From positions 1 to 36,719 of the forward strand of contig DWXC01000007.1 of NCBI GenBank assembly GCA_019119395.1: DNA of 36,719 nucleotides, given 5' to 3'. Under the pieces are notes generated by a model. It was given only the letters and a program-made list of their open reading frames with translations. It had not been told where the DNA came from and searched no databases. The stretch is from Candidatus Borkfalkia stercoripullorum (lineage in GTDB: Bacteria; Bacillota; Clostridia; Christensenellales; Borkfalkiaceae). This document shows positions 18,643-31,766 of the stretch, in pieces (position 1 is the first letter of the stretch; each line of letters begins with the position of its first letter). A program made the position numbers and the translations under genes.

Positions 18643-18648
18643 GGACGC

Positions 18649-19602
18649 ATGGACGGAGAAAAAAGGATACACCACGACTTCGATTTTTCCATTGCGGACG
18701 AAGCGCGGTACACACAGATCAGAGACGTAGGCGCGGCGCTCGCGAGCGAAGACCGACTGCGCATCCTGCGGCTGATCTCGCAGCGGCCGAGGACGCTTTC
18801 AGAACTGAGCGCAGAACTCGGGCTCGCCGTTTCGAGCGTTTCCTACCACATAGACGCGCTGGTGAGGGCGCAGCTCGTTTACGTGCAGTACCGCCCCGGG
18901 CCGAAGGGGCACACAAAATTGTGCAGCATACGGGCGCCGGCGGTATCGCTCGATCTGAACGATTCGGGCCGGGACGCGCGCGAGCGCGCCGTGCGCGTGG
19001 AAATGCCGATCGGCAATTACGTGGAATGCGACGTGACCGCCCCCTGCGGCATCGCGGGAGATACGGGCGTGATCGGGCGGGTGGACGACGCGGGCGTGCT
19101 GTTTTCCCCCGAGCGCACGCAGGCGCAGCTCCTCTGGTTTCACAGCGGAAAGGTGTCCTACAACTTCCCCAACCCCGCGCGGGAAAAGGGGCGCTTCCGC
19201 TCGATCTCGTTCTCGATGGAAATCTGCAGCGAAGCGATGTACCACCGCAACGAGTGGCCGAGCGACGTGACCGTGTGGATCAACGGCAAGGAAACGGCGA
19301 CACGCACCCTCCCCGGGGATTTCGGCGGGCGGCGGGGCAAATACACGCCCGCGTACTGGTCGCTGACCAGCACCCAATACGGGCTTTTGAAACACTTTAC
19401 CGTGACCGAGGAAGGCGCGTTTGCGGACGGCGCGCCCGTGCGCGGCGGCATACGCTTTGCCGACCTGAAAATCGAGGAACGCCCCTATATCCGCTTTACG
19501 ATCGGCGTGAAAGAGGACGCGCCGCACGCGGGCGGGCTCAACCTGTTCGGCGCGCGCTTCGGAGACTTTCCGCAGGCGATCGTCATGACCCTTTCCGAAT
19601 AA
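18649..19602 (+). CDS. ArsR-type winged-helix regulator with C-terminal sensor-like domain
   Basis: 317 aa. Residues about 20-95 form an ArsR-like winged helix (DRLRILRLISQRPRTLSELS, VSSVSYHIDALVRAQLV). The remaining 200 residues are a beta-rich domain with WPSDVTVWINGKE, PGDFGGRRGKYTP and GGLNLFGARFGD, motifs I associate with a regulator family found beside carbohydrate-active genes in Paenibacillus and clostridia; a jelly-roll ligand-binding role is inferred. The start at 18649 is chosen because a consensus promoter ends 6 nt before it; a further in-frame ATG at 18598 would lie upstream of the promoter. No ribosome site is present, so the mRNA is probably leaderless. It likely controls the divergent GtaA-like gene. 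Confidence 0.88.
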   Translation: MDGEKRIHHDFDFSIADEARYTQIRDVGAALASEDRLRILRLISQRPRTLSELSAELGLAVSSVSYHIDALVRAQLVYVQYRPGPKGHTKLCSIRAPAVSLDLNDSGRDARERAVRVEMPIGNYVECDVTAPCGIAGDTGVIGRVDDAGVLFSPERTQAQLLWFHSGKVSYNFPNPAREKGRFRSISFSMEICSEAMYHRNEWPSDVTVWINGKETATRTLPGDFGGRRGKYTPAYWSLTSTQYGLLKHFTVTEEGAFADGAPVRGGIRFADLKIEERPYIRFTIGVKEDAPHAGGLNLFGARFGDFPQAIVMTLSE

Positions 19603-19656: not shown

Positions 19657-20130
19657 TCAGACCATCGTCAGCAAGAGTTGATGGATATAACTGTAATACG
19701 AACCGAGATAATCCTGCGCGACGGTATCCGCCAAAAAATCGGAAAGAGCCTCTTCCTTGTCTTCATAGGAAAGGTAATAATCGCGCACGGTGATGTAGCG
19801 CTCGCGCATCGGCAGGGAATAGTCCACCTCGTAAGGCGCGTCCTCCCCGCCCGAGCCGCCCGGCCCGGAGCCGCTCGCGCCGCTCTGCGCGTACAGTTCT
19901 TCCAGTTTTTCGTCCAGTTCGCTCTGGATCTCGGCGACCGCGTCGTCGAGATCCTCTTTCAACCGCGCGAGAATGTTTTGCAGGATGCTCGACCGCGCCG
20001 CCCTGCGCGCGGACGCTTCGCACTCCTCGGTATAGCGATCGTCCTCGTATTTTCGGCGCTCCACGTCGCTCTTGCGGTTCGCCTCTTTGATGAGCCGCTG
20101 TGCCGCGCGCTCCACTTCTTCTTCCGTCAT
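19657..20130 (-). CDS. 157-aa coiled-coil protein, last gene of the head module
   Basis: 157 aa. Residues 1-82 are highly charged and helical with heptad-like spacing (VERAAQRLIKEANRK; ILARLKEDLDDAVAEIQSELDEKLEEL), followed by a Gly/Ser linker (GASGSGPGGSGG) and an acidic, Tyr-rich tail (about 95-157). AAAGGAGG lies just before the ATG, 10 nt after the upstream stop. I do not recognise the family. In P22 the gene after gp10 encodes the coiled-coil tail needle gp26, so a plug or needle role is conceivable, but there is no sequence evidence beyond position and the coiled coil. Confidence 0.7.
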   Translation of the reverse strand: MTEEEVERAAQRLIKEANRKSDVERRKYEDDRYTEECEASARRAARSSILQNILARLKEDLDDAVAEIQSELDEKLEELYAQSGASGSGPGGSGGEDAPYEVDYSLPMRERYITVRDYYLSYEDKEEALSDFLADTVAQDYLGSYYSYIHQLLLTMV

Positions 20131-20140
20131 AGCCCCTCCT

Positions 20141-21436
20141 TTACGCGTTCCGCGAATAGCCCGCCGTCAGGGAAAACACCTTGCCGTTTTCCCCTTTGGA
20201 GATCACTTTGAAGCAAAACCGCGCGCCCGCAAGCGCGGCGCGCACCCGCTTCGTTCCCCTGCACACGATCTCGAAACTGCGTTCCCCGCGTTCGCTGCAA
20301 ACGCACAGTGCGAAACTCCCTTCGGCGGTCAGCGCCAGCTCTTCCAGCACGCATTCCTCGCCGCCGAAGGGCGACACGCCGCCGCTTTTCCACTCGGCGG
20401 GCGCGCTTCCGCCCTCCGAGACGGCATAAATATTCCCGCCGCGGTAAAACAGCACGCGCGCGCCCGCAGGCGTCGCGGCCGCCGTCATCGCCGCGCATTC
20501 GCACGGGCAGACGAAGCCGTCCTTCCCGTCTTCCGAAAAGACGCCGAGGCCCGCCTCCCCGTCAAATTCGGCGGCGAGGTACACCTTGCCCCCGCACGCC
20601 GCCATGCGCGCGTTCCTGTTCGCGGCGGACGAAATTTTCTCCGCAAACGCGGGGTAAAAACTCTGCGCGTCGCCGAAGCGGTACATGCCGCGTTCGGTCA
20701 GGACATACGCGCGCCCGTTTTCGGTGCAAACCGCGTAAACTTCCGTAAACGGCGCCGGTTCGTCGGAGAGGGAAAACTCGTCCTCCGTGCCCTTCGCGTC
20801 AAGTTTCTGCACGCCGTACCGCCTGAAAAGGTAAAACGCGCCGTTCAGTTCGGCAAAGGCGGCGATCTCCCCGCGCCCGTCGGGGAAGTCGATATAGTTT
20901 TCCCCTTCCTCCCCGAATCCGTAAATATCGCGGAGCGCGGAAAAGCGCACGCGGTGCGCGTCTCCCCCGCCCGTATACAGCCAAAGCCTGTCGTAAGCGT
21001 AGCCGCCGCAGGAAAAGGGAGGGATCTCTTCCGTTTGGGTGAGCCCGTCCGAATTGAAAACGCACACGCTCTCCCCGTCTGACAGGACGAGCGCCTCCTC
21101 CCCGTCGTAGACCCGCACGCAGGCGGGCGCCTTTTCAAACCGAACGCCCGCCGAAGCGAACGCGCCGCCGTCGGTCAGGCAGACGTACATCTGTCCGCCC
21201 GCGTACGCCGCCGCAGAAAAGCAGTCCGTACCCGAAAGAAAGTACAGCGCCTCGGGCTCCACGCCCGACGGCAGGATGTATTTCCCCGCGCTCCCTTCGT
21301 AGACGGCGGCTCCCTTTCCGTGCGACAAAGCGCCGTCTTTGAGCGAAAAGCCCCTGCGTTCCCCCGCGGCAAGGTCGCACGCGGCGCGCGTGAGCGAACC
21401 CGCTTTGCGGAACGCGCTCTTGACCGCCCGCCTCAT
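20141..21436 (-). CDS. Beta-propeller-like protein in the position of P22 gp10 (nozzle)
   Basis: 431 aa from the ATG at 21436, which overlaps the upstream stop as ATGA. Most of the protein is made of short repeated beta stretches (for example YAGGQMYVCLTDGG, YDRLWLYTGGGD, NGAFYLFRRYGVQKL, NGRAYVLTERGMYRFGD, GGKVYLAAEFDG), the look of a beta-propeller. P22 gp10 is about 470 aa and forms the tail nozzle that closes the portal channel; podoviral nozzle proteins contain propeller domains. Placement after coat and adaptor genes supports a nozzle role. This is inference from order and fold impression, not a clear sequence match. Confidence 0.65.
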   Translation of the reverse strand: MRRAVKSAFRKAGSLTRAACDLAAGERRGFSLKDGALSHGKGAAVYEGSAGKYILPSGVEPEALYFLSGTDCFSAAAYAGGQMYVCLTDGGAFASAGVRFEKAPACVRVYDGEEALVLSDGESVCVFNSDGLTQTEEIPPFSCGGYAYDRLWLYTGGGDAHRVRFSALRDIYGFGEEGENYIDFPDGRGEIAAFAELNGAFYLFRRYGVQKLDAKGTEDEFSLSDEPAPFTEVYAVCTENGRAYVLTERGMYRFGDAQSFYPAFAEKISSAANRNARMAACGGKVYLAAEFDGEAGLGVFSEDGKDGFVCPCECAAMTAAATPAGARVLFYRGGNIYAVSEGGSAPAEWKSGGVSPFGGEECVLEELALTAEGSFALCVCSERGERSFEIVCRGTKRVRAALAGARFCFKVISKGENGKVFSLTAGYSRNA

Positions 21437-21981
21437 ACCCACCGCCTCGGCTTCATCGCCGCGCCCCCGCTCTTCGCCGCCGCGGCGAGCGCGTCTTTAT
21501 AGCGCGCGTCCAGTTCGGCGGCGCGGTCGAGCATGCCTTCCATGAGGGCGAACTCGCACGCCGTGCCCAGCGCGAGAAACCTTTCCCCGCAACGGAATTC
21601 CGTTTCGTCGTCCAACCCCTTGACCGCGGGGCGGGCGCGGTATCGTACGGTCACGTCGCCCCTGCGCACCGATACGCCCTCTTCGTTGACTTTAAAGCAC
21701 AGTTTTTCGCCCTTTTCCGAAAGGACGGCGACGATCTCGACGGGCATCCCCGAAAACGCGGAAAAGGGAATATTCCCTTCCGAACGCAGTTTTTCCTCCC
21801 GTTTGAGCGGGATATAATCGAGCGCAGCCTCGTTTTCGGTCAGATTGAAACATTTGAGCATCTGTTCCGCGTCGCGGCGCAGGCCGTCGCCGTCCACGCC
21901 GCCCTTTCCTTCCAGCCAGTCGCACAGGTCGCGCCTGCCCGCAAGGGACGCCGCGCACGCCATGATGTTCCTTACCTTCAT
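21433..21981 (-). CDS. Head-completion/adaptor-like protein in the position of P22 gp4
   Basis: 182 aa from the ATG at 21981, which has AAGGAGG 6 nt upstream; an ATG two codons earlier overlaps that site. The N-terminal third is helical with LAGRRDLCDWLEGKGG and AEQMLKCFNLTENEAALDYIPLK; the middle is beta-rich and the end is an Ala-rich helix (CEFALMEGMLDRAAELDARYKDALAAAAKS). P22 gp4 is about 166 aa and lies in the same position, joining portal to nozzle. Similar proteins occur after coat genes in clostridial prophages. The role is inferred from size, order and helical ends. Confidence 0.65.
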   Translation of the reverse strand: MKVRNIMACAASLAGRRDLCDWLEGKGGVDGDGLRRDAEQMLKCFNLTENEAALDYIPLKREEKLRSEGNIPFSAFSGMPVEIVAVLSEKGEKLCFKVNEEGVSVRRGDVTVRYRARPAVKGLDDETEFRCGERFLALGTACEFALMEGMLDRAAELDARYKDALAAAAKSGGAAMKPRRWV

Positions 21982-22019
21982 CCTCATCCTCCTTTGCGGG
22001 AACGCCCCGCACGAGCGCG

Positions 22020-22132
22020 AAGCGGGCAAAACCCGCTCCGCGCGCCTTGTTTTTTCACCCGCGAAGAGGGCGGAACGAGTCCGTGCTCCCGCCCGCCCCT
22101 TCAAAGCGCAGCCGCGTTCCGCGCGGAACGCG
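22020..22132 (-). other. Two hairpins in the coat-adaptor gap
   Basis: A 20-nt perfect palindrome, CGCGTTCCGCGCGGAACGCG (22113-22132), begins 6 nt after the coat stop on the minus strand, and a smaller AGCGGG/CCCGCT hairpin lies near 22020-22037. Neither has a T-run. They could protect the coat mRNA or reduce read-through, giving more coat than downstream products. Confidence 0.45.
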
Positions 22133-22138
22133 CCGCCC

Positions 22139-23302
22139 TTACGCCTCGGTGATGCCCGAAAGCATCGCCTGCCCGCACGGGCGGGTGCAGATGAGGTCGG
22201 CGTACTTGACGAGTGTCGCCGTGTAGACGGGCTTGCCCGCCACCTGTTTGAGCACTCTTCCGTCGTCCCCCTCCAGCCACTTCCAGTCGCAGAGCTGGTG
22301 CAGGCAAAAATCATCCGTGTTCAGAAGGTACATCGTGCCGTCGGGGCAGAACCTGTCCGCCACGACGGGAATGCCGTTGTACGAAATGGTGCGGTAACCG
22401 CCCGCAAGCTCCATGACGTCGGTGTTGCGCTTGTTCGTGCTGAAAAGTTCCTGCAGCGCGCGCTTCACGCCCCAGCTGCACACGATGAAGTTGACGCGGC
22501 TGCCCGCCGTCTCTTCGAGGCGGTCGATCGCCGTCTGAATGGCGGTCTCGCTGATCTTGCCGACGCTCGTTTTGATATACGGGATCAGCCACTTGTGCGT
22601 GGAGCGGTCGAGCCCGTAAAGGCTGCCTTGCGTTTTGAAGATCGCGCCGAGGCCCGTGAGTTCGAGATTGTAAGAGCCCTGCACGCACATTTCGCAGCCT
22701 TCCGCAACGCCCGTGAGCGCCCCGCCCGAAAGGGTGACCGTCTTGGTGTCGCGGTCGACCGAAAGGATGCGCCTGCCCGCCGCGGCGGCGACCGCTTCCC
22801 CTTCGTCCATGAAGTCGACGACCATGCCTTCGACGACGTTTTTCACGCCGTCGAGGGTGACGGACGTGCCCGAAACGGACGCGACCGTCGCCAGGACGCC
22901 GCTGCCGTCGCCGAAGAGCATCCTGCCGAAATTGAAGGACGAGGAACGAACGAGCCCCTCCATCTCCGCGTTGAGCAGGTTCACGAACGCGCCGACGTTG
23001 TTTTCGGACGCGCGCACCGCCTTGTCGCTGATCTCGATCGTGCCGTACAGGTTTTTGAGCGTGGTCACGAACTGCTCGTAGTTGTTGCCCGCCGCCGCGG
23101 GGAGTTCGCCCTCTTCCGTGCCCGCACCCACGCCGCCGTTCACGCCGTAGCGGGCGAGCCGCCTCACTTCCTTGCCCCACACGTCCGCGGCAGACTGCCT
23201 GATCGCCGCCAGAAGCGGGTTTGCCGCCGTGTTCAACTGATCGGAAATTACGCCGAGATATACGCTTTTGAGCGCGTTGTCCGCGCTGGTCATTGTTACC
23301 AT
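22139..23302 (-). CDS. Major capsid (coat) protein, HK97-fold type
   Basis: 387 aa. The N-terminus LKSVYLGVISDQLNTAANPL, the segment GNNYEQFVTTLKNLYGTIEISDKAVRAS and the C-terminal half with VNFIVCSWGVKRALQEL, YRTISYNGIPVVADRF and TMYLLNTDDF are typical of HK97-fold major capsid proteins; the central stretch (about 135-190) is beta-rich, like an inserted domain. P22 coat is about 430 aa. It lies directly after the scaffold gene. AAGGAG is 14 nt before the ATG, rather far, and a second ATG lies three codons in. Confidence 0.85.
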   Translation of the reverse strand: MVTMTSADNALKSVYLGVISDQLNTAANPLLAAIRQSAADVWGKEVRRLARYGVNGGVGAGTEEGELPAAAGNNYEQFVTTLKNLYGTIEISDKAVRASENNVGAFVNLLNAEMEGLVRSSSFNFGRMLFGDGSGVLATVASVSGTSVTLDGVKNVVEGMVVDFMDEGEAVAAAAGRRILSVDRDTKTVTLSGGALTGVAEGCEMCVQGSYNLELTGLGAIFKTQGSLYGLDRSTHKWLIPYIKTSVGKISETAIQTAIDRLEETAGSRVNFIVCSWGVKRALQELFSTNKRNTDVMELAGGYRTISYNGIPVVADRFCPDGTMYLLNTDDFCLHQLCDWKWLEGDDGRVLKQVAGKPVYTATLVKYADLICTRPCGQAMLSGITEA

Positions 23303-23349
23303 ATGCCGTTAAAATTCTCCTTTTTTTATTTGCGGAAACGCCCGCGCGT

Positions 23350-23820
23350 TCAGCCCCTGCCCTGCAGGAGATGCGCCGCGAGCGCGCCCGCCTCTTCCAT
23401 GGTGCGCGCCCTGCGTTCGGGCGCGGAAACGTGCGTTCCCCCGCCCGCCATGACGAGCGGCGCGCCTGCGGAAACGGACGCGAGATATTCCTCGATGACG
23501 CTCCTCTTCACGTCGTCGGGCACGTCCGCCCCGCCCGCCCTTTCGGGCACGGTTCCGGGCGCGGAGCTTTCGCGCGGGGCGGGCGGCGCCGCGTTATCGC
23601 CCGAACCCGCGTTCCCGTTGTTCTGCACCCGCGCTTCCAGTTCCCTCAGGCGCTGACTGCGGCGGGTAAATTCAGCTTCGAGGGAATTGTAAGCGTTCAG
23701 AAGGGCATCTACGCTCTTGAATTTGCCAAGCCGCGCGGCCGCCGCGCCTTCCTCCGTATGAGCCTCCGCTCCGTGCGCCGCCTCCTGCGCCGCGTCCATG
23801 TTCTCCTTCCTTTCTTCCAT
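23350..23820 (-). CDS. Scaffolding-like protein
   Basis: 156 aa from the ATG at 23820 with AAGGAG 7 nt upstream; an internal ATG seven codons later also has a ribosome-like site. The first half is Ala/Glu-rich and helical with GKFKSVDALLNAYNSLEAEF and RSQRLRELEARVQNN, a pattern seen in scaffolding proteins of clostridial phages; the rest is a Pro/Gly-rich low-complexity stretch and a final helix with PERRARTMEEAGALAAHLLQ. Position between portal and coat, high charge and coiled coil support scaffolding. It is about half the size of P22 gp8. Confidence 0.75.
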   Translation of the reverse strand: MEERKENMDAAQEAAHGAEAHTEEGAAAARLGKFKSVDALLNAYNSLEAEFTRRSQRLRELEARVQNNGNAGSGDNAAPPAPRESSAPGTVPERAGGADVPDDVKRSVIEEYLASVSAGAPLVMAGGGTHVSAPERRARTMEEAGALAAHLLQGRG

Positions 23821-23831
23821 CCTGATTCTCC

Positions 23832-25709
23832 TTATTCGATTTTGTTTTGCTTCGCGCCGAGCGCCGACTCGTGTTCCGCGAGGTGCCGCTCGAAGCGCTC
23901 CTTCGCTTCCCCGCCGCACTTCCCGAACTCGTCGGAAAGGAGAAAGCGGGTATGCTCGGCGATATGCAGGGCATGGTCGTCGTAACCGTCCGCCCCGACG
24001 TATCCCTTCGCCAGCCGCAGATTTTCCTCCGCGGCCTTGTTTGCGTGCAGCTGCTCCAGCCCGCGCGCGTTTTGCAGCCCGCCGAAGCCGAGCGCGTTCA
24101 GAACGCGCCGCTTGGTATCCGAAGAGACTTTTCCGTCCTCGTCGGAAAGCAGCCCCATGTTGTAAATTTCATAGAGCAGCGAACGGTTTTCCGAAGGGTT
24201 GTTCGCGCCCGCGCTCTCCGCTTCGAACACGACGTCGTCCGAAGAGATGTCGCTGGCGGCAAAGTAAAACATTTCCACCCTGCCGCCTTCGCCCGTCATG
24301 CGCATCAGCCTGCCCGCGCCCGCAAATTCGCGCATGAGCCGAAGCGCCTGCCTGCCCGTCTCTTTGAGCGCCCTCGCGATGCTTCCCCGCGTGACCGCGA
24401 GGCGGGTATCGTCGAGGTCGATGAGAAGCTGCAGCCCCGTGGCGCTCGTGATGCGCGTGCCGTTCGCGGAATTGGAACTGATCTCGCTGACGCCGCTCAC
24501 CAGCGTGAATTCGTCGAGAAGCCGCTCCTCCTCGTCGTGAAAATCGGCGGGAAGCGCGTCGGGCCCCAGAAATTCGGGCTTCGCCGCGCCCTGGCGGTAG
24601 ACGACGATCTTGCCGGGAGAAAGCCCCTCTTCGGCGAGTTCGTCGGTATCCACAGACCCGTCCTCCACGGCGAGCACGCCCATCGTCAGGCGGTTGAGGA
24701 ATTCGTGCTTCCTGTTCTTCACCGCGTTGTACGCGCGCTGGACGGGGATGAGCCTGTCCACGATGCTCCCGCCGAAAAAGCTGCCCGAAAGTTCGATCGC
24801 GCACTGTTTGACGAAGGGGAACGCCCTCGCCCCGCCCGCGCCGTTGCGGTACGGGAGCGGGCCGTCGTGCACGAGCACGTCCCCCGCCACGACCGTGAGC
24901 CGGCCCTCGGGCAGTTCCGCGTTCGGGCGGATATAACGCTCGATGACGATCTCCGAATTTTTCGCCGCGCCCTGCGCAAAGCCGCCCGCCCCGCCCGTAA
25001 AATGCGCGGAAACGGATACGGGCGCATAGGAAAAGCCGCGTATCTCCCTGCCCGCGAGCCTGACGCCGTAAAGGCGCTCGATCTCGGAAACGTGCACGGC
25101 GCGCGCCTCTATGATGCTCTCCTGCTCCTCCACGCTCTCGCAGCCGAGGTTTTCGGGATAGATCTCGAAGGGCGAGACCGCCGCGATGCGCACCCCGCCT
25201 TCATAGACGGGCGCGCCGTCCCTTTCCCCGATCTTTTTGCCCGCGTTCGCGTCCCACAGCACTTTATAGAACGCCGTGCCGCACGTTTCGCTCCAGACCG
25301 TCGCCTTGTCCGCGGCCGCGTCCAACCCCGCGTCCTCGCACACCGCTTTGAGCACGTTCGCCGATATTTTCGCCGTGCGCATGTCGCTCTCCTGATCGCT
25401 CGCCGCGCGCACCGTGAGCGCGGGGCGCATGGAAGCCAGTTTCGCACAGCGCGTGTCGATGGCGGGCGCGATGTGGTTGAACACCCGCCTGTACTGCCAC
25501 GCATAGCGCGGCTCTTCCTCCTCGAGTTCGCCCGCGGGGTCGATGCCGCAGTACTGGTTTCCCGCCAAAAAATTCATGTCCAGTTCCCAGCCCCGCTCGA
25601 TCAGCCTGCGTTCCGCCTGTCGGCGCGCGAGCTCTTCTTTCACCTCGCGCACGATGCGCTCGGCGGCTTTGTCCTGCGCGTTCCGCAAAGCCTGTGTCAT
25701 GTTTTTCAT
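23832..25709 (-). CDS. P22-type portal protein
   Basis: 625 aa. The portal forms the dodecameric DNA gate at one capsid vertex. Features typical of the P22-portal family are WELDMNFLAGNQYCGIDPAGE near the N-terminus, WQYRRVFNHIAPAIDTRCAKLASMRP (about 73-98), PFEIYPEN, PVQRAYNAVKNRKHEFLNRL, and the long C-terminal helix region with TSATGLQLLIDLDDTRL. The start overlaps the 86-aa gene by 4 nt and has GGGGAGG just upstream. P22 portal is about 725 aa, longer because of its C-terminal barrel. Confidence 0.9.
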   Translation of the reverse strand: MKNMTQALRNAQDKAAERIVREVKEELARRQAERRLIERGWELDMNFLAGNQYCGIDPAGELEEEEPRYAWQYRRVFNHIAPAIDTRCAKLASMRPALTVRAASDQESDMRTAKISANVLKAVCEDAGLDAAADKATVWSETCGTAFYKVLWDANAGKKIGERDGAPVYEGGVRIAAVSPFEIYPENLGCESVEEQESIIEARAVHVSEIERLYGVRLAGREIRGFSYAPVSVSAHFTGGAGGFAQGAAKNSEIVIERYIRPNAELPEGRLTVVAGDVLVHDGPLPYRNGAGGARAFPFVKQCAIELSGSFFGGSIVDRLIPVQRAYNAVKNRKHEFLNRLTMGVLAVEDGSVDTDELAEEGLSPGKIVVYRQGAAKPEFLGPDALPADFHDEEERLLDEFTLVSGVSEISSNSANGTRITSATGLQLLIDLDDTRLAVTRGSIARALKETGRQALRLMREFAGAGRLMRMTGEGGRVEMFYFAASDISSDDVVFEAESAGANNPSENRSLLYEIYNMGLLSDEDGKVSSDTKRRVLNALGFGGLQNARGLEQLHANKAAEENLRLAKGYVGADGYDDHALHIAEHTRFLLSDEFGKCGGEAKERFERHLAEHESALGAKQNKIE

Positions 25710-25966
25710 GTTTCCTCCCCTTCCCGCAGCATGGCGAGAAGTCTCTTTTTTTCCGCTTGCAACGCCTCGGGGGAGAGCGCCGAAAGGGGCTTTTCCTCCT
25801 CCGAAAGCATCTTTGCCGCCGCTACGTCGGGCGGCACCGTCTTTTTCGTGACCTTGCGTTTGAGAAGGACTGCTTCCCCTTCCTGAAAAGCGTACTCCTC
25901 CACCACTTCGTCCGCCTCGAACCCGAGCGCGCGGCGAAGCATTGCGTCCTTTACTCCTTCATCCAC
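25706..25966 (-). CDS. 86-aa small protein between terminase and portal
   Basis: 86 aa, acidic. MLRRALGFEADEVVEEYA followed by KRKVTKKTVPPDVAAAKMLSEEE resembles the C-terminal part of small phage proteins that accompany terminases (helix-turn then PPDxxAAxxLL). The last 25 residues form a Lys/Glu helix. It overlaps terL by 8 nt and the portal gene by 4 nt, with GAGGAGG upstream. It may replace or assist a small terminase subunit, none of which is otherwise visible; it lacks a clear DNA-binding HTH. Role inferred only. Confidence 0.7.
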   Translation of the reverse strand: MDEGVKDAMLRRALGFEADEVVEEYAFQEGEAVLLKRKVTKKTVPPDVAAAKMLSEEEKPLSALSPEALQAEKKRLLAMLREGEET

Positions 25967-27401
25967 CGTAACCTCCTCTCCGCGCGAGCCTGCGCATGAG
26001 CCGCTGCTTATCCCGCATGACGGGCGTCGGCAGGGGGTCGGGCAAGGCGTTTTTCGGCTTCGTCATCAAAAGATACCGAAGCTCGTCCATTGCGTGGTCT
26101 CCGCGCTTTCGCGGCATGTCGCCGCTGCCCCAGAAATACCCCTTGAATTCGCGTATCATGTTGACGCAGTTCGAAAAAACATACAGCTTCGGCTTACCGC
26201 CCTCCCCGATCAGATAGCTTTTGACCCGCGCGATGCCCGAGAACAAGTCCTTGTTCACCTTCGTGTTGACGAGGATGCCCTGCTCGTAAAACAGTTCGCT
26301 CACGCTCTTTGCGCTCGCCAGCGTCCTCTGATTCGCCGCAGGGTCGATGAGCGCCGACACCCTGCCCTTCCCGTCCGTATGCCAGCCGAGCCTGCGGGAG
26401 ATCTCTTTGATCTTCTCCGCATGGTAGCCGATGTCGCGCTTTGCCTCGTAATGTTCGGCTATGACGTATACGTTGCCGTCATAATCGACCGCATACCAGT
26501 GCGCGGAGAGCGGATTGTTCAGCCCCGGATCGATGGATACGGTATCGTACCATTCGTGCGGGACGGGAAACGGGCTGATCACGTGCGCCTCCTCCGAAAA
26601 TTCGGGGTATACGAGCCCCTCCGCCGCGCAGAACCTGCCGAACCGCCGCGAGGCGAGTTCTTTTTCCCCGAGCAGGGCGGCGCAGCGGCTTATCTCTTCC
26701 TTGTCGAGGAAAGGGTTGTCCGCCCACTCCATAAACTCGTACCAGACTTCGGGGTCGTTCCGCTCGTTCATGTAGATCTCGTCGAAGAGGAAGGTCAGCC
26801 CTTTCAGCGGGGTCATCGTGCCGAAGATATCCCCCTTTTTGTCGAGCACGCGCATGCGGCATTCTTCATAAATATCGCGGGGCGGCTCTTCGTCGAACCA
26901 CACGAAATCGAGCGAGGCGCCCTGAAATTTTTCCCGCCCCTGGTCGCAGCTTTTGAATCCGATGACCGAAATGCCGCCGAAGACGTTGCGCACGCGGATC
27001 TGGTCGATGATTCCCGAATCGGGCGCGCCCTTCCTGCCCGAAAGCATGACGATGTCTTCGATCCATGCGGGGTCGAGGTAAAACAGCACCTTTTTCTGCG
27101 CCACGTCGCGCTGTACCTGTTGGGAAAGGGAGACGACCCAGCCGAACACGCCGTCCCTGTTCTTCCTGTACGGGTGCACGCCGCGCGCGAGATATACGCA
27201 CTCCGCCGCGCCGCACTCCGTTTTGCCGCTCCTGTTCCCGCCGAACACCCAGCGGTTGCGCTTTTTGCACTTGTGGAAAGCGATCTGCTTTTTGTGCTTT
27301 TTCCGCCCCGCATTGTACAGTTCGAGCGGGCCTTTCCGCGCGCGCCTGCGCTCTTCTCCCTCTATTTCCAATAATTTTGCAATAATTTCCTCTTCGCGCA
27401 T
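25959..27401 (-). CDS. terL: Phage terminase large subunit
   Basis: 480 aa, the packaging motor and nuclease. Walker A GGNRSGKT is at residues 54-61, Walker B FVWFDE at 166-171, and the coupling motif MTPLKG at about 196-201. The RuvC-like nuclease acidic residues are visible as D291 (SIDPGLNNP), D353 (LIDPAANQ) and D435/D439 (RGDHAMDEL), so both activities look intact. P22 gp2 is about 499 aa. No Shine-Dalgarno precedes the ATG; a TATTAT box lies about 15 nt upstream. A late regulator gene lies further upstream on the same strand. Confidence 0.93.
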   Translation of the reverse strand: MREEEIIAKLLEIEGEERRRARKGPLELYNAGRKKHKKQIAFHKCKKRNRWVFGGNRSGKTECGAAECVYLARGVHPYRKNRDGVFGWVVSLSQQVQRDVAQKKVLFYLDPAWIEDIVMLSGRKGAPDSGIIDQIRVRNVFGGISVIGFKSCDQGREKFQGASLDFVWFDEEPPRDIYEECRMRVLDKKGDIFGTMTPLKGLTFLFDEIYMNERNDPEVWYEFMEWADNPFLDKEEISRCAALLGEKELASRRFGRFCAAEGLVYPEFSEEAHVISPFPVPHEWYDTVSIDPGLNNPLSAHWYAVDYDGNVYVIAEHYEAKRDIGYHAEKIKEISRRLGWHTDGKGRVSALIDPAANQRTLASAKSVSELFYEQGILVNTKVNKDLFSGIARVKSYLIGEGGKPKLYVFSNCVNMIREFKGYFWGSGDMPRKRGDHAMDELRYLLMTKPKNALPDPLPTPVMRDKQRLMRRLARRGGYGG

Positions 27402-27488: not shown

Positions 27489-28184
27489 ATGAAAAAATTC
27501 ATCCTTGTTTTGCTCGCCGCACTGGCGGCTTGCATGTCCCTTTTCGCTTTGCCCGTCTCCGCCGACGAAGGCGCGCGCTACGCGCGCGTCACGGAAGAAG
27601 GGGTGTACTTTTACTCCGCCGCCGACGAGGGCGCGGGGCTGTTCATCCTGCCGCGAACCTATTTCGTCAGGATCGTAGGCGAAGCGGGCGCTTTTTACCG
27701 CGTCGGCTACCTCGACGGTTCCGCAGACGGCGGGGCTTTGGAAGGGTACTGCCTCGCGGACGAGGTGACGCCCGTCGACTACGTACCCGAAACGCCTTAC
27801 CTCGAATACTCGGTGACGGTGACGTACAGCGCGGGCGGGGACGGGCAGATGCCCGACTCTCCCCTCGCCGAATACGAGGTTTCCGCCGCCTATTACGGCG
27901 AATTTGCGTACGGTTCTGCGACCTGCTATTACGTGAACATCGGCGGAAAATTCGGCTATGTGCCCGCCTCCGCCTGTTCCGCCGTTTCCTACCCGGAAAA
28001 TCCCGAGCACTCCGAAACCGAAACGCCGCCCGAGGAAAACGCACAGCCTTCGGGCGGGTTCGGCGCGCTGAACGTGGTGCTCATATGCGTGCTCGCCGTC
28101 GCCGCCCTCGGCGCGATCTGGTTTTTGTTCCGCCCCGCGAAACAGCGCAAAAACGACGAGGAAGAGGCGGAAGACGTGTTCTGA
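27489..28184 (+). CDS. Secreted SH3-like protein with C-terminal membrane anchor
   Basis: 231 aa. A signal peptide (MKKFILVLLAALAACMSLFALPVSA) is followed by two SH3-like modules, about 30-95 (RYARVTEEGVYFY, ILPRTYFVRIVGEAG, GYCLADEVTP) and 100-165 (YYVNIGGKFGYVPASACSAV), then an acidic Pro/Glu linker, a membrane helix (about 192-213) and a short charged tail. Orientation should be outside with a cytoplasmic tail. The modules resemble the C-terminal ones of the 878-aa protein at 29130-31766, so the two are paralogues in that part. It lies on the opposite strand between phage late regulator and terminase. Function unknown; cell-wall association is plausible. Confidence 0.82.
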   Translation: MKKFILVLLAALAACMSLFALPVSADEGARYARVTEEGVYFYSAADEGAGLFILPRTYFVRIVGEAGAFYRVGYLDGSADGGALEGYCLADEVTPVDYVPETPYLEYSVTVTYSAGGDGQMPDSPLAEYEVSAAYYGEFAYGSATCYYVNIGGKFGYVPASACSAVSYPENPEHSETETPPEENAQPSGGFGALNVVLICVLAVAALGAIWFLFRPAKQRKNDEEEAEDVF

Positions 28185-28318: not shown

Positions 28319-28837
28319 TTAAGCGCCCCGTTTTCCTTCGCGGGCGAGAGAATTTTTCGTCCGCTTGTCCGCAAAGGCGGTCTGCCCGCATTCACGCAGT
28401 TTTCCGAGCGCGTCCGCTATGTAAGGGAACTCCCCGAACGTGCGCATGAACCACTCCTCGCTCATCCCGCGCCGCATGAACAGCCCGTTCAAACGGCTTT
28501 CCAGCCGCGCCTGGCGGCGGAAATAGGTGCGCTCCGAACAGGCAAGCCGCACGTCCGCGAACTCCTTTTCCAGCATCTTCTTGCGCCTGAAATACTTGTA
28601 TTCGAGCAAATACAGCTCTTCTCTCCCCAATTCGCCGAGGATACTTTGCATATCGTCCTCCAATACGATGAGGCAATCCCTGAACCGTATATACTCCATG
28701 ATCTTCTCCGCGCACCGCTCCGTCGCGAAATCCGCCCCCGAAGCGACCGCGCGCGCCTGCGCGATCTCCCCGACGCTTACGATCAGCCTCTTCAGTTTCG
28801 GATACAGGAACAGAATAATTTTTTGATAATCTTTCAT
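28319..28837 (-). CDS. ArpU/RinA-like phage late transcription regulator
   Basis: 172 aa from the ATG at 28837 (weak GGCGGGTG ribosome site). The N-terminal half is helical; the central part LGREELYLLEYKYFRRKKMLEKEF and SERTYFRRQARLESRLNGLF reads as a sigma-region-4-like helix-turn-helix, the layout of ArpU and RinA proteins that activate late operons just upstream of terminase genes in Firmicute phages. Here it lies upstream of terL on the same strand, with only a divergent membrane-protein gene between. A LexA-like box lies upstream (28918-28931). The family is suggested by the pattern and position, not by an exact motif. Confidence 0.65.
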   Translation of the reverse strand: MKDYQKIILFLYPKLKRLIVSVGEIAQARAVASGADFATERCAEKIMEYIRFRDCLIVLEDDMQSILGELGREELYLLEYKYFRRKKMLEKEFADVRLACSERTYFRRQARLESRLNGLFMRRGMSEEWFMRTFGEFPYIADALGKLRECGQTAFADKRTKNSLAREGKRGA

Positions 28838-29129: not shown

Positions 29130-31766
29130 ATGAAAAAGAAACTCATCACGATTTTGATCATACTCGCGGCGGTCTGCGCGCTCGGCACGGGCGCGCTGAC
29201 GGCGCACGCGGAAAACGGGAAAGCCAATGGGGGCAATGCCGAAACGCGTCTGCTTCTGCCCTCTTCTTACGAGCAGTATCTCGAACTTGAAAGCCCCTCC
29301 GACTTTGCGGTAAGCGAGCGCTACATCGCCGTGGCGGACAAAGATATCATATATGTGTACGACAAAAGCGATAGCATTTTCGCAACATATACTCATACTG
29401 CGTCCACAAGTACTTTAAGTTCCTTGAACTTTTACGAAAACGGCGGCTCTTGCTACTTACTTTTCGTTGACAGCAATACGAATATTTACTATATTGACTG
29501 CGGTTCGCGCGCCGACGATGACACGTTTTCTTCTACTTCGCTGGACTTTACGTGCGCTTCGTTTATCATACAGGGAGAAACCCTGTATTACTCTCGCACA
29601 ACAAGCGGAACCGTGGTATACCGAACAGCCATGTCGCTGAGTTCCCTTGCGGAAGGAGAAACTATAGAGCAGGACGCAACAACGAGCATAACCCCTTATT
29701 TTTCCATGTCGGGCAACGAAGTATATTTTTCCCTGAACAGCCGCATTTATCTAATTACGGAAAACGGCGCAGCACAAGAATACCGCAGCGTTTCCTCTTC
29801 CATAACTGCTTTTTCGGTAACGGACGACAAAATATTTTACTCCACTACGGGAAGTGACAGAGATTTTTTGGTCTATCAAAATCAAATGTCGCAAGCGGTA
29901 CAATATAACGGGGATTCGATTACGGGAGTCCCTTCCGTCAAACTTGTCGGCAACGACCTTTGGTTTATAGAAAACCAAAATATCCGCTTGCTCGATCCAT
30001 TCGCGAAGGAGGGTTACTCTTTCCTCGACTACACCATCGGCAAATATGCAGACATCGAAAACCGCATCGGGCAAAACGCTTCCGATATATCTTTGAACGG
30101 CGATACCGTTGTGATCGCCGATACAAGCAACTCTCGCATACTTCTCGCGCACAACGATTCTAACGGCGGATCGTATACAAGCATTGAAACGGACGCATTT
30201 TCGCCGATGCTCGTTTGTGCGGGCGAAAGCGATTTTGCCGTAGCAGACGGTGGAATATTGCGCATCTACTCCTATAACGGTTCGCTCGTCCGCTCGTATG
30301 ACGCTCTCACCACAAGCATCAACGGCATCGCATATTCTTACGGAAATTATTACGTTACGGCGGAAAGCCAATCGTTCATATATGTTTACGATGCGGCAAC
30401 CGATCTCCCCGAAAGCAAGTCCGTTCCTGCGGCAGGCAATGCCATCACCGCCGACATTTACGGCAACTTGTATATTTTGAGCGGTACCGCGGTATATGAA
30501 CTGAATGTTCTTTCCGAAAATATTTTTGACGGCAATATCATTTACACGGCTCCCGCACAGACCAATAAAATTTTATCCGATTTTGCGGGCAACCTTTACG
30601 CACAGACGGACGGCGGGATTTATCTTCTCAACAGCGGCGGCAACACCTCCGTATTCGCCCCGGCAAGCCTCGCCCCCCTCGTCTATTACGACGGAACGCC
30701 GACGGTCGAATCCTTCGCTTTCTCCTTTGAAAGCGGCGAGGTTTATATCCTTTCGGACGGCTTTATCGCCGTGACCGAAAAGATCGGGGTCTCTTCCCTC
30801 GACCACCTTTCCTCCCAAGACGAAAACGGTAAAAAGGCGTACGATACGCTCTATACGGACGCTTTGACGGCGGATTCGTATACGGCGCTGCAGCTCGTGG
30901 CCGTGCCCGCGCAGAGCGTGGCGATCTCCCTGGACTTTCAGGGCCTGGATCAGAGTTCGGACTCTCTCCCCTACGAAAGTTATTCCAAAACGGCCGAAGA
31001 ACGGACGGGCGTCGTGCTCGCCCGGACGGTAAACGGGCCGATCGTCGGTTTCTTTACCCGTACGGAAGATCCAGACAGCGACGTCAACGTGGTTTATGCG
31101 TATGAAGTCGCGCTCATCCTCGATACCGACGATACGCTCGCGTACAGCGACGCTGCGCAGGAAAACGCGGCGCAAAGCGCTTCCGTCGTGGAAAACGTGG
31201 GCATTTACAAATACCCGCAGATGCGGCTGGGCAGCAACGCCGTTTCCTCCTCCGAAGATTATACCGACTTTCTCTGTATCGGACGTCTGGAGAAGGGCGC
31301 GCAGATCTCCCTGCTCGCGCGCGTGGACGGCGCTCATCTCGACAGCGATTATTACTTTGTTTCCGCGTCCGTGGGCGGGGAAACGGTGTACGGCTATATC
31401 CCCGCGAGTTTCGCCGTGCAATACGGAGAAGCGGGCGGCGGCGCAGGCGGGGCGGAATACCGCTACGCACGCCTCGACCGCGGCAAAAGCGTGACGCTGT
31501 ATCATACTTCCGCAAACACCGAACTCATCCTCTCCGACGAAGAGGAACTGAAAATCTACTATAACAACAAAGACGAACACGGCAACGTATATGCCGTATA
31601 CGAGACCGAAACCGGCACTTATGCGGGTTATATCGACCCCGACTGCCTGTACGAAGCGACGCCGATCGTCATGGTGACGCTTGCGCTCGTACTCGTCGTC
31701 GCGGCGGCGCTCATCGTGTCCGTCTGCTATCTGATCCTGCGCAAACAGCCGACCCTGCAGCCGTGA
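29130..31766 (+). CDS. Secreted beta-propeller/SH3-like protein with C-terminal membrane anchor
   Basis: 878 aa. A signal peptide (about 1-27, ending AHA) is followed by a long beta-propeller-like region (about 45-580) of repeated short strands (IAVADKDIIYVYDKS, VVIADTSNSRILLAHN, FAVADGGILRIYSYNG, GNLYILSGTAVYELN, GNLYAQTDGGIYLLN), NHL/YncE-like. Then come SH3-like modules (about 680-830; GYIPASFAVQY, YARLDRGKSVTLYH) related to those of the protein at 27489-28184, and a membrane helix (about 848-872). It should face outward. Base composition is uneven: 29340 to about 30650 is AT-rich (20 G/C of 60 at 29341-29400) while the ends are GC-rich (45 of 60 at 29161-29220; 42 of 60 at 31441-31500). 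Function unknown. Confidence 0.82.
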   Translation: MKKKLITILIILAAVCALGTGALTAHAENGKANGGNAETRLLLPSSYEQYLELESPSDFAVSERYIAVADKDIIYVYDKSDSIFATYTHTASTSTLSSLNFYENGGSCYLLFVDSNTNIYYIDCGSRADDDTFSSTSLDFTCASFIIQGETLYYSRTTSGTVVYRTAMSLSSLAEGETIEQDATTSITPYFSMSGNEVYFSLNSRIYLITENGAAQEYRSVSSSITAFSVTDDKIFYSTTGSDRDFLVYQNQMSQAVQYNGDSITGVPSVKLVGNDLWFIENQNIRLLDPFAKEGYSFLDYTIGKYADIENRIGQNASDISLNGDTVVIADTSNSRILLAHNDSNGGSYTSIETDAFSPMLVCAGESDFAVADGGILRIYSYNGSLVRSYDALTTSINGIAYSYGNYYVTAESQSFIYVYDAATDLPESKSVPAAGNAITADIYGNLYILSGTAVYELNVLSENIFDGNIIYTAPAQTNKILSDFAGNLYAQTDGGIYLLNSGGNTSVFAPASLAPLVYYDGTPTVESFAFSFESGEVYILSDGFIAVTEKIGVSSLDHLSSQDENGKKAYDTLYTDALTADSYTALQLVAVPAQSVAISLDFQGLDQSSDSLPYESYSKTAEERTGVVLARTVNGPIVGFFTRTEDPDSDVNVVYAYEVALILDTDDTLAYSDAAQENAAQSASVVENVGIYKYPQMRLGSNAVSSSEDYTDFLCIGRLEKGAQISLLARVDGAHLDSDYYFVSASVGGETVYGYIPASFAVQYGEAGGGAGGAEYRYARLDRGKSVTLYHTSANTELILSDEEELKIYYNNKDEHGNVYAVYETETGTYAGYIDPDCLYEATPIVMVTLALVLVVAAALIVSVCYLILRKQPTLQP

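Follow-up and report, generated by a model that had tools for sequence, protein, structure and literature searches.

The window analysed here is the entire contig C26, 36,719 bases long, from a Candidatus Borkfalkia genome of 1.87 Mb in 39 contigs; NCBI taxonomy places the genus in Christensenellales, Bacillota. Our subject is a 7.7 kb island of phage-type head and tail genes within it, at 19657-27401 on the minus strand. An earlier note on this DNA had described eight open, tightly coupled genes, and indeed all eight closely packed reading frames are open and three pairs of them overlap (terL/TerS' by 8 nt, TerS'/portal by 4 nt and g4/g10 by 10 nt). In operon order, from 27401 down to 19657, they are:

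25959..27401, minus strand: terL, large terminase, 480 aa (Terminase_6N 4e-11; phrog_2 4e-28)
25706..25966, minus strand: TerS', C-terminal part of a small terminase without the helix-turn-helix (HTH), 86 aa (its profile A10 matches the phage TerS of viral contigs L282-L286)
23832..25709, minus strand: portal, 625 aa (P22_portal 1.4e-17; phrog_156 4e-39)
23350..23820, minus strand: probable scaffold, 156 aa (position between portal and coat, kept in relatives)
22139..23302, minus strand: major coat protein, 387 aa (phrog_14242 major head protein 6e-65; SU10_MCP 5e-5, under the Pfam cut-off)
21433..22002, minus strand: gp4-like head-tail adaptor (g4), start position uncertain (AlphaFold model with pLDDT 93, Foldseek matches to podophage head-tail proteins)
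20141..21442, minus strand: gp10-like tail hub or nozzle (g10), 433 aa (AlphaFold model with pLDDT 92, Foldseek matches)
19657..20130, minus strand: coiled-coil protein (cc), a shortened homologue of the ~310-aa G9 protein found at the same place in sister families

The terL profile matches the solved TerL structure 5oe8 (E 3e-14). Its columns G54-T61, D170-E172, D291, D353 and D435, which we take to be the Walker-type motor and the nuclease aspartate motifs, are invariant or nearly so among 15 aligned sequences including that of the window, which bears out the claim that the ATPase and nuclease residues are intact. The labels "gp4-like" and "gp10-like", likewise proposed earlier, hold by fold: the g4 model finds SU10 (E 8e-5), KHP30 (1e-4) and T7 (4e-3), and the g10 model finds the Pa223 tail (2e-17), P22 gp10 (8eap_D, 4e-13) and Sf6 gp8 (3e-11). 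The coat profile matched no solved structure by sequence, and family searches with the scaffold gave no informative match, so that the latter is named as probable from its position. The cc protein aligns with G9 in hhalign (A3 against A9, probability 98.3, E 2e-14); neither had an informative match in family scans, and their position suggests perhaps a needle or ejection protein. Given the family matches of terL, portal and coat and the folds of g4 and g10, the predicted particle would have a head, a portal and a short tail.

The small terminase deserves special attention. Its profile found 19 loci among viral contigs. Five of them (L282-L286) do not belong to the island type, and their TerS is longer. 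All five have an N-terminal HTH match (weakest E 0.02); TerL comes directly after TerS in three of them, and the TerL profile gave no match in the remaining two. An HTH scan of the island TerS' gave no match in any of the 12 copies scanned. Of the 152 TerS' hits at island loci, 146 could be placed, and 145 of those are downstream of terL; the sets counted overlap, as some genomes appear twice, and some mechanical starts reach into terL. In 21 of the 152 hits the longest frame begins 52-157 residues ahead of the motif. Of these 21 frames, 17 extend into terL, probably through mechanical start assignment; of the other four (L185, L186, L035 and L164), L185 was the one scanned and has no HTH, and L186 has the same hit lengths. 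The one exception in placement, L034 of genome G048 (L034:5092-7003), has terL preceded by a longer TerS, which gives weak HTH matches (E 0.01-0.08), and the coat of G048 is one of the two most divergent; this arrangement may be the ancestral state or a prophage. Two known gene transfer agents (GTAs) are similar in this respect. In RcGTA the TerS appears to have no N-terminal DNA-binding domain, and its DNA binding is weak and non-specific (PMC6854486); the TerS of FpGTA, from Faecalibacterium, is without any obvious DNA-binding domain (Borodovich et al. 2026, PMC12946183). Since TerS' also lacks the HTH, we infer by analogy that the island may package DNA at random.

The earlier note proposed a search of related genomes for the same island at the same locus, and in the genus this is largely what we see. 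The coat gene is present in 33 of the 37 genomes of the genus, each time in single copy, in an open frame and with no stops, and gene order is fixed in a neighbourhood largely common across species. Three of the four misses are contigs broken inside the island: G003 and G013 keep terL and TerS' on contigs that end inside the portal gene, and G009 keeps the cc gene at a contig end. Only G016 has the downstream flank without the module. Frameshifts in relatives, named beforehand as a sign against domestication, have a counterpart only in some sister genera, whose islands have been disrupted or have disappeared. Across the order, the coat was found in 237 of 396 sampled genomes and in 72 of 142 genera. 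A sample of the class gave 26 of 391, 14 in the order and 12 outside it; the latter stand against a denominator of about 372, assuming that the genome list is ordered by kinship, with 5 in-order non-matching genomes listed.

The module also appears to have diversified together with its hosts. We compared a tree of terL, portal and coat with one of rpoB, our sole marker, for 27 of 28 genomes (G022 had too little rpoB). The two trees have 12 of 24 splits in common, whereas 2,000 label shuffles gave on average 0.19 common splits and never more than 3, and module and rpoB distances correlate with r=0.965 (351 pairs, 27 genomes), or 0.71 within the genus (190 pairs). The dN/dS comparison that had been proposed for terL, portal and coat gives Nei-Gojobori medians within the genus of 0.14, 0.24 and 0.17, well below 1. 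Those of four more island genes and of three flanking genes described further below are regulator 0.30, SH3 protein 0.32, coiled coil 0.32, g4 0.33, scaffold 0.39, beta-propeller-like protein 0.43 and g10 0.52, with rpoB at 0.07; thus all ten genes tested in the island and its flanks stay below 1, although some of the pairs are saturated at synonymous sites. A coat tree places the order's islands in one phage-free group, with a weak support of 0.15, and 6 of the 13 coats from outside the order fall among phage contigs; because of both, we do not use this tree as evidence.

The genus g34, which belongs to another family and has genomes of 0.8-1.2 Mb, has taken the island apart. In six of its genomes terL and coat, both open and single-copy, are physically separated, lying 39, 42, 45, 48, 55 and 104 kb apart on a single contig; a seventh (G211) has them on different contigs, and an eighth (G064) has neither. 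In this genus dN/dS is 0.10 for TerL (8 unsaturated of 21 pairs) and 0.20 for coat (14 of 15 pairs). In G088 one block holds TerS', portal, scaffold, coat, adaptor, hub and two holins. A phage, prophage or satellite that forms one contiguous unit would hardly last in this divided form with both parts kept; the simplest cause, in our opinion, is that selection in the host acts on the separate parts.

How does this compare with what is expected of a GTA? The definition in PMC9662315 has six points: particle proteins derived from caudoviricetes, packaging of mostly random host DNA, an endogenised genome often in several loci, a gene set too big for the head, vertical inheritance with the host, and DNA delivery. 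Set beside these points, the island encodes particle proteins of caudoviricete type by similarity (TerL, portal, coat) and by fold (adaptor, hub). It is endogenised, with a common neighbourhood across species and with terL 39-104 kb from coat in the six g34 genomes. It has also been inherited vertically to the extent that one marker with five supported conflicts can tell (12 of 24 splits, r=0.965). On random packaging the pointers are indirect: the HTH missing from TerS' and packaging events published for other Christensenellaceae. From the sequence data, we consider it likely, and hold with good confidence, that the island is the head-and-short-tail cluster of a GTA-like particle of the podovirus or P22 type, carried vertically by Christensenellales. 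The earlier preference for a domesticated, GTA-like packaging system over a decaying prophage thus gains support from genus-wide presence, synteny, dN/dS and co-diversification with rpoB.

Three flanking genes appear to be linked to the island:

28319..28837, minus strand: putative late activator, RinA/ArpU/sigma-like (weak matches in relatives)
27489..28184, plus strand: SH3-like secreted or membrane protein, between the regulator and terL (signal peptide and C-terminal transmembrane segment by eye)
29130..31766, plus strand: beta-propeller-like secreted membrane protein at the island flank (weak propeller matches under cut-off)

The window copy of the regulator has no NCBIfam match; among 19 relatives, RinA was matched in five (best 0.013), sigma70-ECF in two (best 1e-5) and ArpU in one (0.026). 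Of 90 loci examined (a few genomes being present twice), 62 include 7.5 kb or more of sequence upstream of coat; among these 62 the regulator is an upstream neighbour in 51, the SH3 protein in 53 and the beta-propeller-like protein in 50. In G044 the beta-propeller-like, SH3, M12 and M11 genes lie adjacent, and both module and regulator are missing; this is an empty site and gives a hint that the two go together. At locus L349 the regulator is absent along with the module. The linkage of the SH3 protein is mixed, with a match at E<=1e-3 in 19 of 20 coat-positive and 8 of 20 coat-negative genomes (three of these eight strong). Both the SH3 and the propeller-like protein are secreted, membrane-anchored and conserved, and they could be surface partners of release or uptake.

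On the other side, of the 54 loci that extend 7 kb downstream, 51 have G9 or cc and 21 have the two membrane-protein genes M12/M11. Homologues of M12, M11 and phosphoglucomutase occur at 18-19 of 41 genus loci, after cc in the examples printed; in the lineage of the window this block sits on another contig, C17. Convergent with the island end is a reading frame at 18648-19602 with an ArsR-like N-terminus by eye and a long remainder, without a Pfam or PHROG match. The island was also said to be bordered by host genes and not by integrase, replication, lysis or fibre genes. Indeed, 14 of 20 flanking reading frames scanned against Pfam belong to ordinary host families (NYN, ABC transporters, PFOR, pseudouridine synthase, LysR, DUF3810, glutaminase-type, oxidoreductases, HMGL, HisIE), and six have no match, some of them probably shadow frames. 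Ten scanned against PHROGs matched only ABC transporters and families of unknown function. No integrase, replication, lysis or fibre family was seen in this scanned subset, so that the combination expected of a prophage, a structural module with integrase, replication and lysis genes, was not found there. In several other families, TerS' and portal are separated by a zinc-ribbon-like gene of ~75 aa (21 loci, such as L110:5507-5737, none from Borkfalkia); family scans with it and with the G13 proteins were without an informative match.

Holins adjoin the island elsewhere. In L028, L029, L032 and L033 a BhlA holin follows G9 and is itself followed by a second holin-like gene (its family was tested in L029 only), and a BhlA search of 61 genomes found it in five, four times at the island and once, in G059, beside a collapsed island remnant. 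By analogy with FpGTA, the fibre and lysis genes of Borkfalkia may lie in a second locus.

If the GTA reading is right, the system might work as follows. A host signal would lead the RinA/ArpU-like regulator to switch the operon on; TerL and the headless TerS would package chromosomal DNA with no choice of a pac site; short-tailed particles would be freed by lysis, as the holins beside the island in several sister families suggest; and the particles would deliver DNA to kin. A wider claim can be made only tentatively, and we would not yet rely on it: that this is an ancient podovirus-type GTA, acquired early in Christensenellales and kept in about 70 of 142 genera, with the SH3 and propeller proteins as built-in partners of release or uptake, that it is the genetic basis of DNA packaging in the order, and that it is among the widest GTA families outside Alphaproteobacteria.

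Several observations weigh against the GTA reading. Particles, packaged DNA and transfer are so far predictions from the genes. The BhlA holin is in none of the 37 genus genomes (other lysis and fibre families were not searched genome-wide), and no receptor-binding protein, tailspike or endolysin was recognised (again with fibre families not searched genome-wide). Five pairs of well-supported splits conflict between module and rpoB. Eight of the 237 coat-positive genomes have at least two coat matches, and at least two coats among the matches listed for the order have an internal stop. Finally, 159 of 396 order genomes have no coat match and some sister species have broken or lost islands, because of which the island must be regarded as dispensable.

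The alternative that survives best is a domesticated capsid with a use other than transfer, for example a PBSX-like killing particle or one that secretes DNA or protein. With receptor-binding and ejection proteins unrecognised, delivery is putative; Borodovich et al. (PMC12946183) leave the PBSX-like option open for FpGTA; and strong selection on TerL suits any DNA-packaging role. However, the loss of the DNA-binding domain of TerS is tied to random packaging in RcGTA (PMC6854486), and a conserved TerL is not obviously needed by a pure killer. We regard this alternative as unlikely.

A capsid-forming satellite or a prophage, with integrase and other genes elsewhere and re-inserting at a preferred site, is in our opinion still less probable. 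The earlier note had offered the satellite as its second option. The common neighbourhood could be an attachment site, which is empty in one genome (L349), the tree conflicts with rpoB would fit, and 88 coat relatives are listed as viral in IMG/VR (79 loci kept). On the contrary, the trees are largely congruent with rpoB, the coat is mostly single copy, and the viral relatives at 46-75% coat identity are mostly short contigs with the island layout, probably host fragments, whereas more distant viral contigs and isolated phages are at about 25-32%. A satellite should be sporadic, mobile and equipped with its own integrase; the island is near-universal and single-copy in the genus, with no integrase family in the scanned flanking proteins. 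The satellite option is thus disfavoured because of single-copy vertical inheritance and the split islands. An old prophage remnant, surviving by chance or slowly decaying, is hardly credible: broken or collapsed islands do occur in G061, G206, G218, G429 and G059, but dN/dS is below 1 in every gene tested, frames are open across the genus, and the genes are retained at split loci in genomes of 0.8 Mb.

The losses have features of their own. In G429, G218, G061 and G206 the terL match stops at the same place (profile position 281-286), where similar foreign sequence begins. The insert in G061 (L304) encodes a DNA cytosine methyltransferase along with other genes and replaces everything from the C-terminal part of terL to most of coat. 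This raises the question whether the sequence is a site-specific, defence-carrying element that disables the island. It has repeated AAAAGTCTAA-type motifs (L303:8641-9164, L304:9577-17800, L305:1-45, L306:1-48). Restriction or methyltransferase genes also follow the coat gene on some viral-collection contigs, with no g4 or g10 match in the stretches examined: Type I restriction-modification in L161/L189 (L161:8658-14182), type II-like genes in L181 (L181:13203-18091), and a cytosine methyltransferase with type IV-like genes in L194 (L194:7211-12191). Separately, the coat is tandemly duplicated in some sister lineages (L260/L273, G128:C2:8035-10370; L183:3690-6061; L188:2750-4668).

Few lineages have known GTAs, and since the particles carry no excess of the DNA that encodes them, the genes are difficult to detect. 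A defined cluster is now available in mostly uncultured gut Clostridia, across an order where GTA-like packaging lacked a named one, and gene exchange in Christensenellales becomes directly testable. Our results also suggest that viral databases list such islands as viruses.

Among known systems, P22, Sf6 and SU10 have a module in which portal, adaptor and tail hub are alike by family or fold, and the head-tail gene order of P22 is that of the island. The island differs in being chromosomally fixed, in having a TerS without HTH, and in that integrase, replication, lysis, tailspike and ejection families were unseen in it and in the flanking proteins scanned. INPHARED has a coat match in 13 records, including the Arthrobacter and Microbacterium phages Jasmine and Shocker (~45 kb); these have the coat match in common with the island, yet at 25-29% identity, and they are free phages. 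The head genes of RcGTA and of Rhodogtaviriformidae are vertically inherited, as here. RcGTA has a siphovirus-like tail and another capsid family, and its gene transfer is proven, where that of the island is predicted.

FpGTA is a close parallel, compared here by its description in PMC12946183. Its genes for TerS, TerL, portal, scaffold and MCP form a single operon of ~10 kb; it is podovirus-like, has no replication genes, and has a second locus, at a distance of 125 kb, with fibre, RBP, holin and endolysin genes. Both systems belong to Gram-positive gut Clostridia, are podovirus-like and have a TerS without an obvious DNA-binding domain. FpGTA differs in belonging to another order, in having TerS upstream of terL where the island has it downstream, and in its second locus, for which no fibre, RBP, holin or endolysin counterpart was found among the island and flanking proteins scanned. 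The same paper reports GTA-like packaging in Christensenellaceae HGM11616 and QANA01 (3 of 25 events) and a search for GTA gene clusters in metagenome-assembled genomes (MAGs) of Onthomonas, Gemmiger and F. prausnitzii; the island is perhaps the gene cluster behind that packaging. In searches of the open-access PMC literature, we recognised no listed paper as naming a GTA gene cluster in Borkfalkia or Christensenellales. Compared with the known GTAs, the island is new in its order, in the placement of its TerS, in its wide range and in its split loci.

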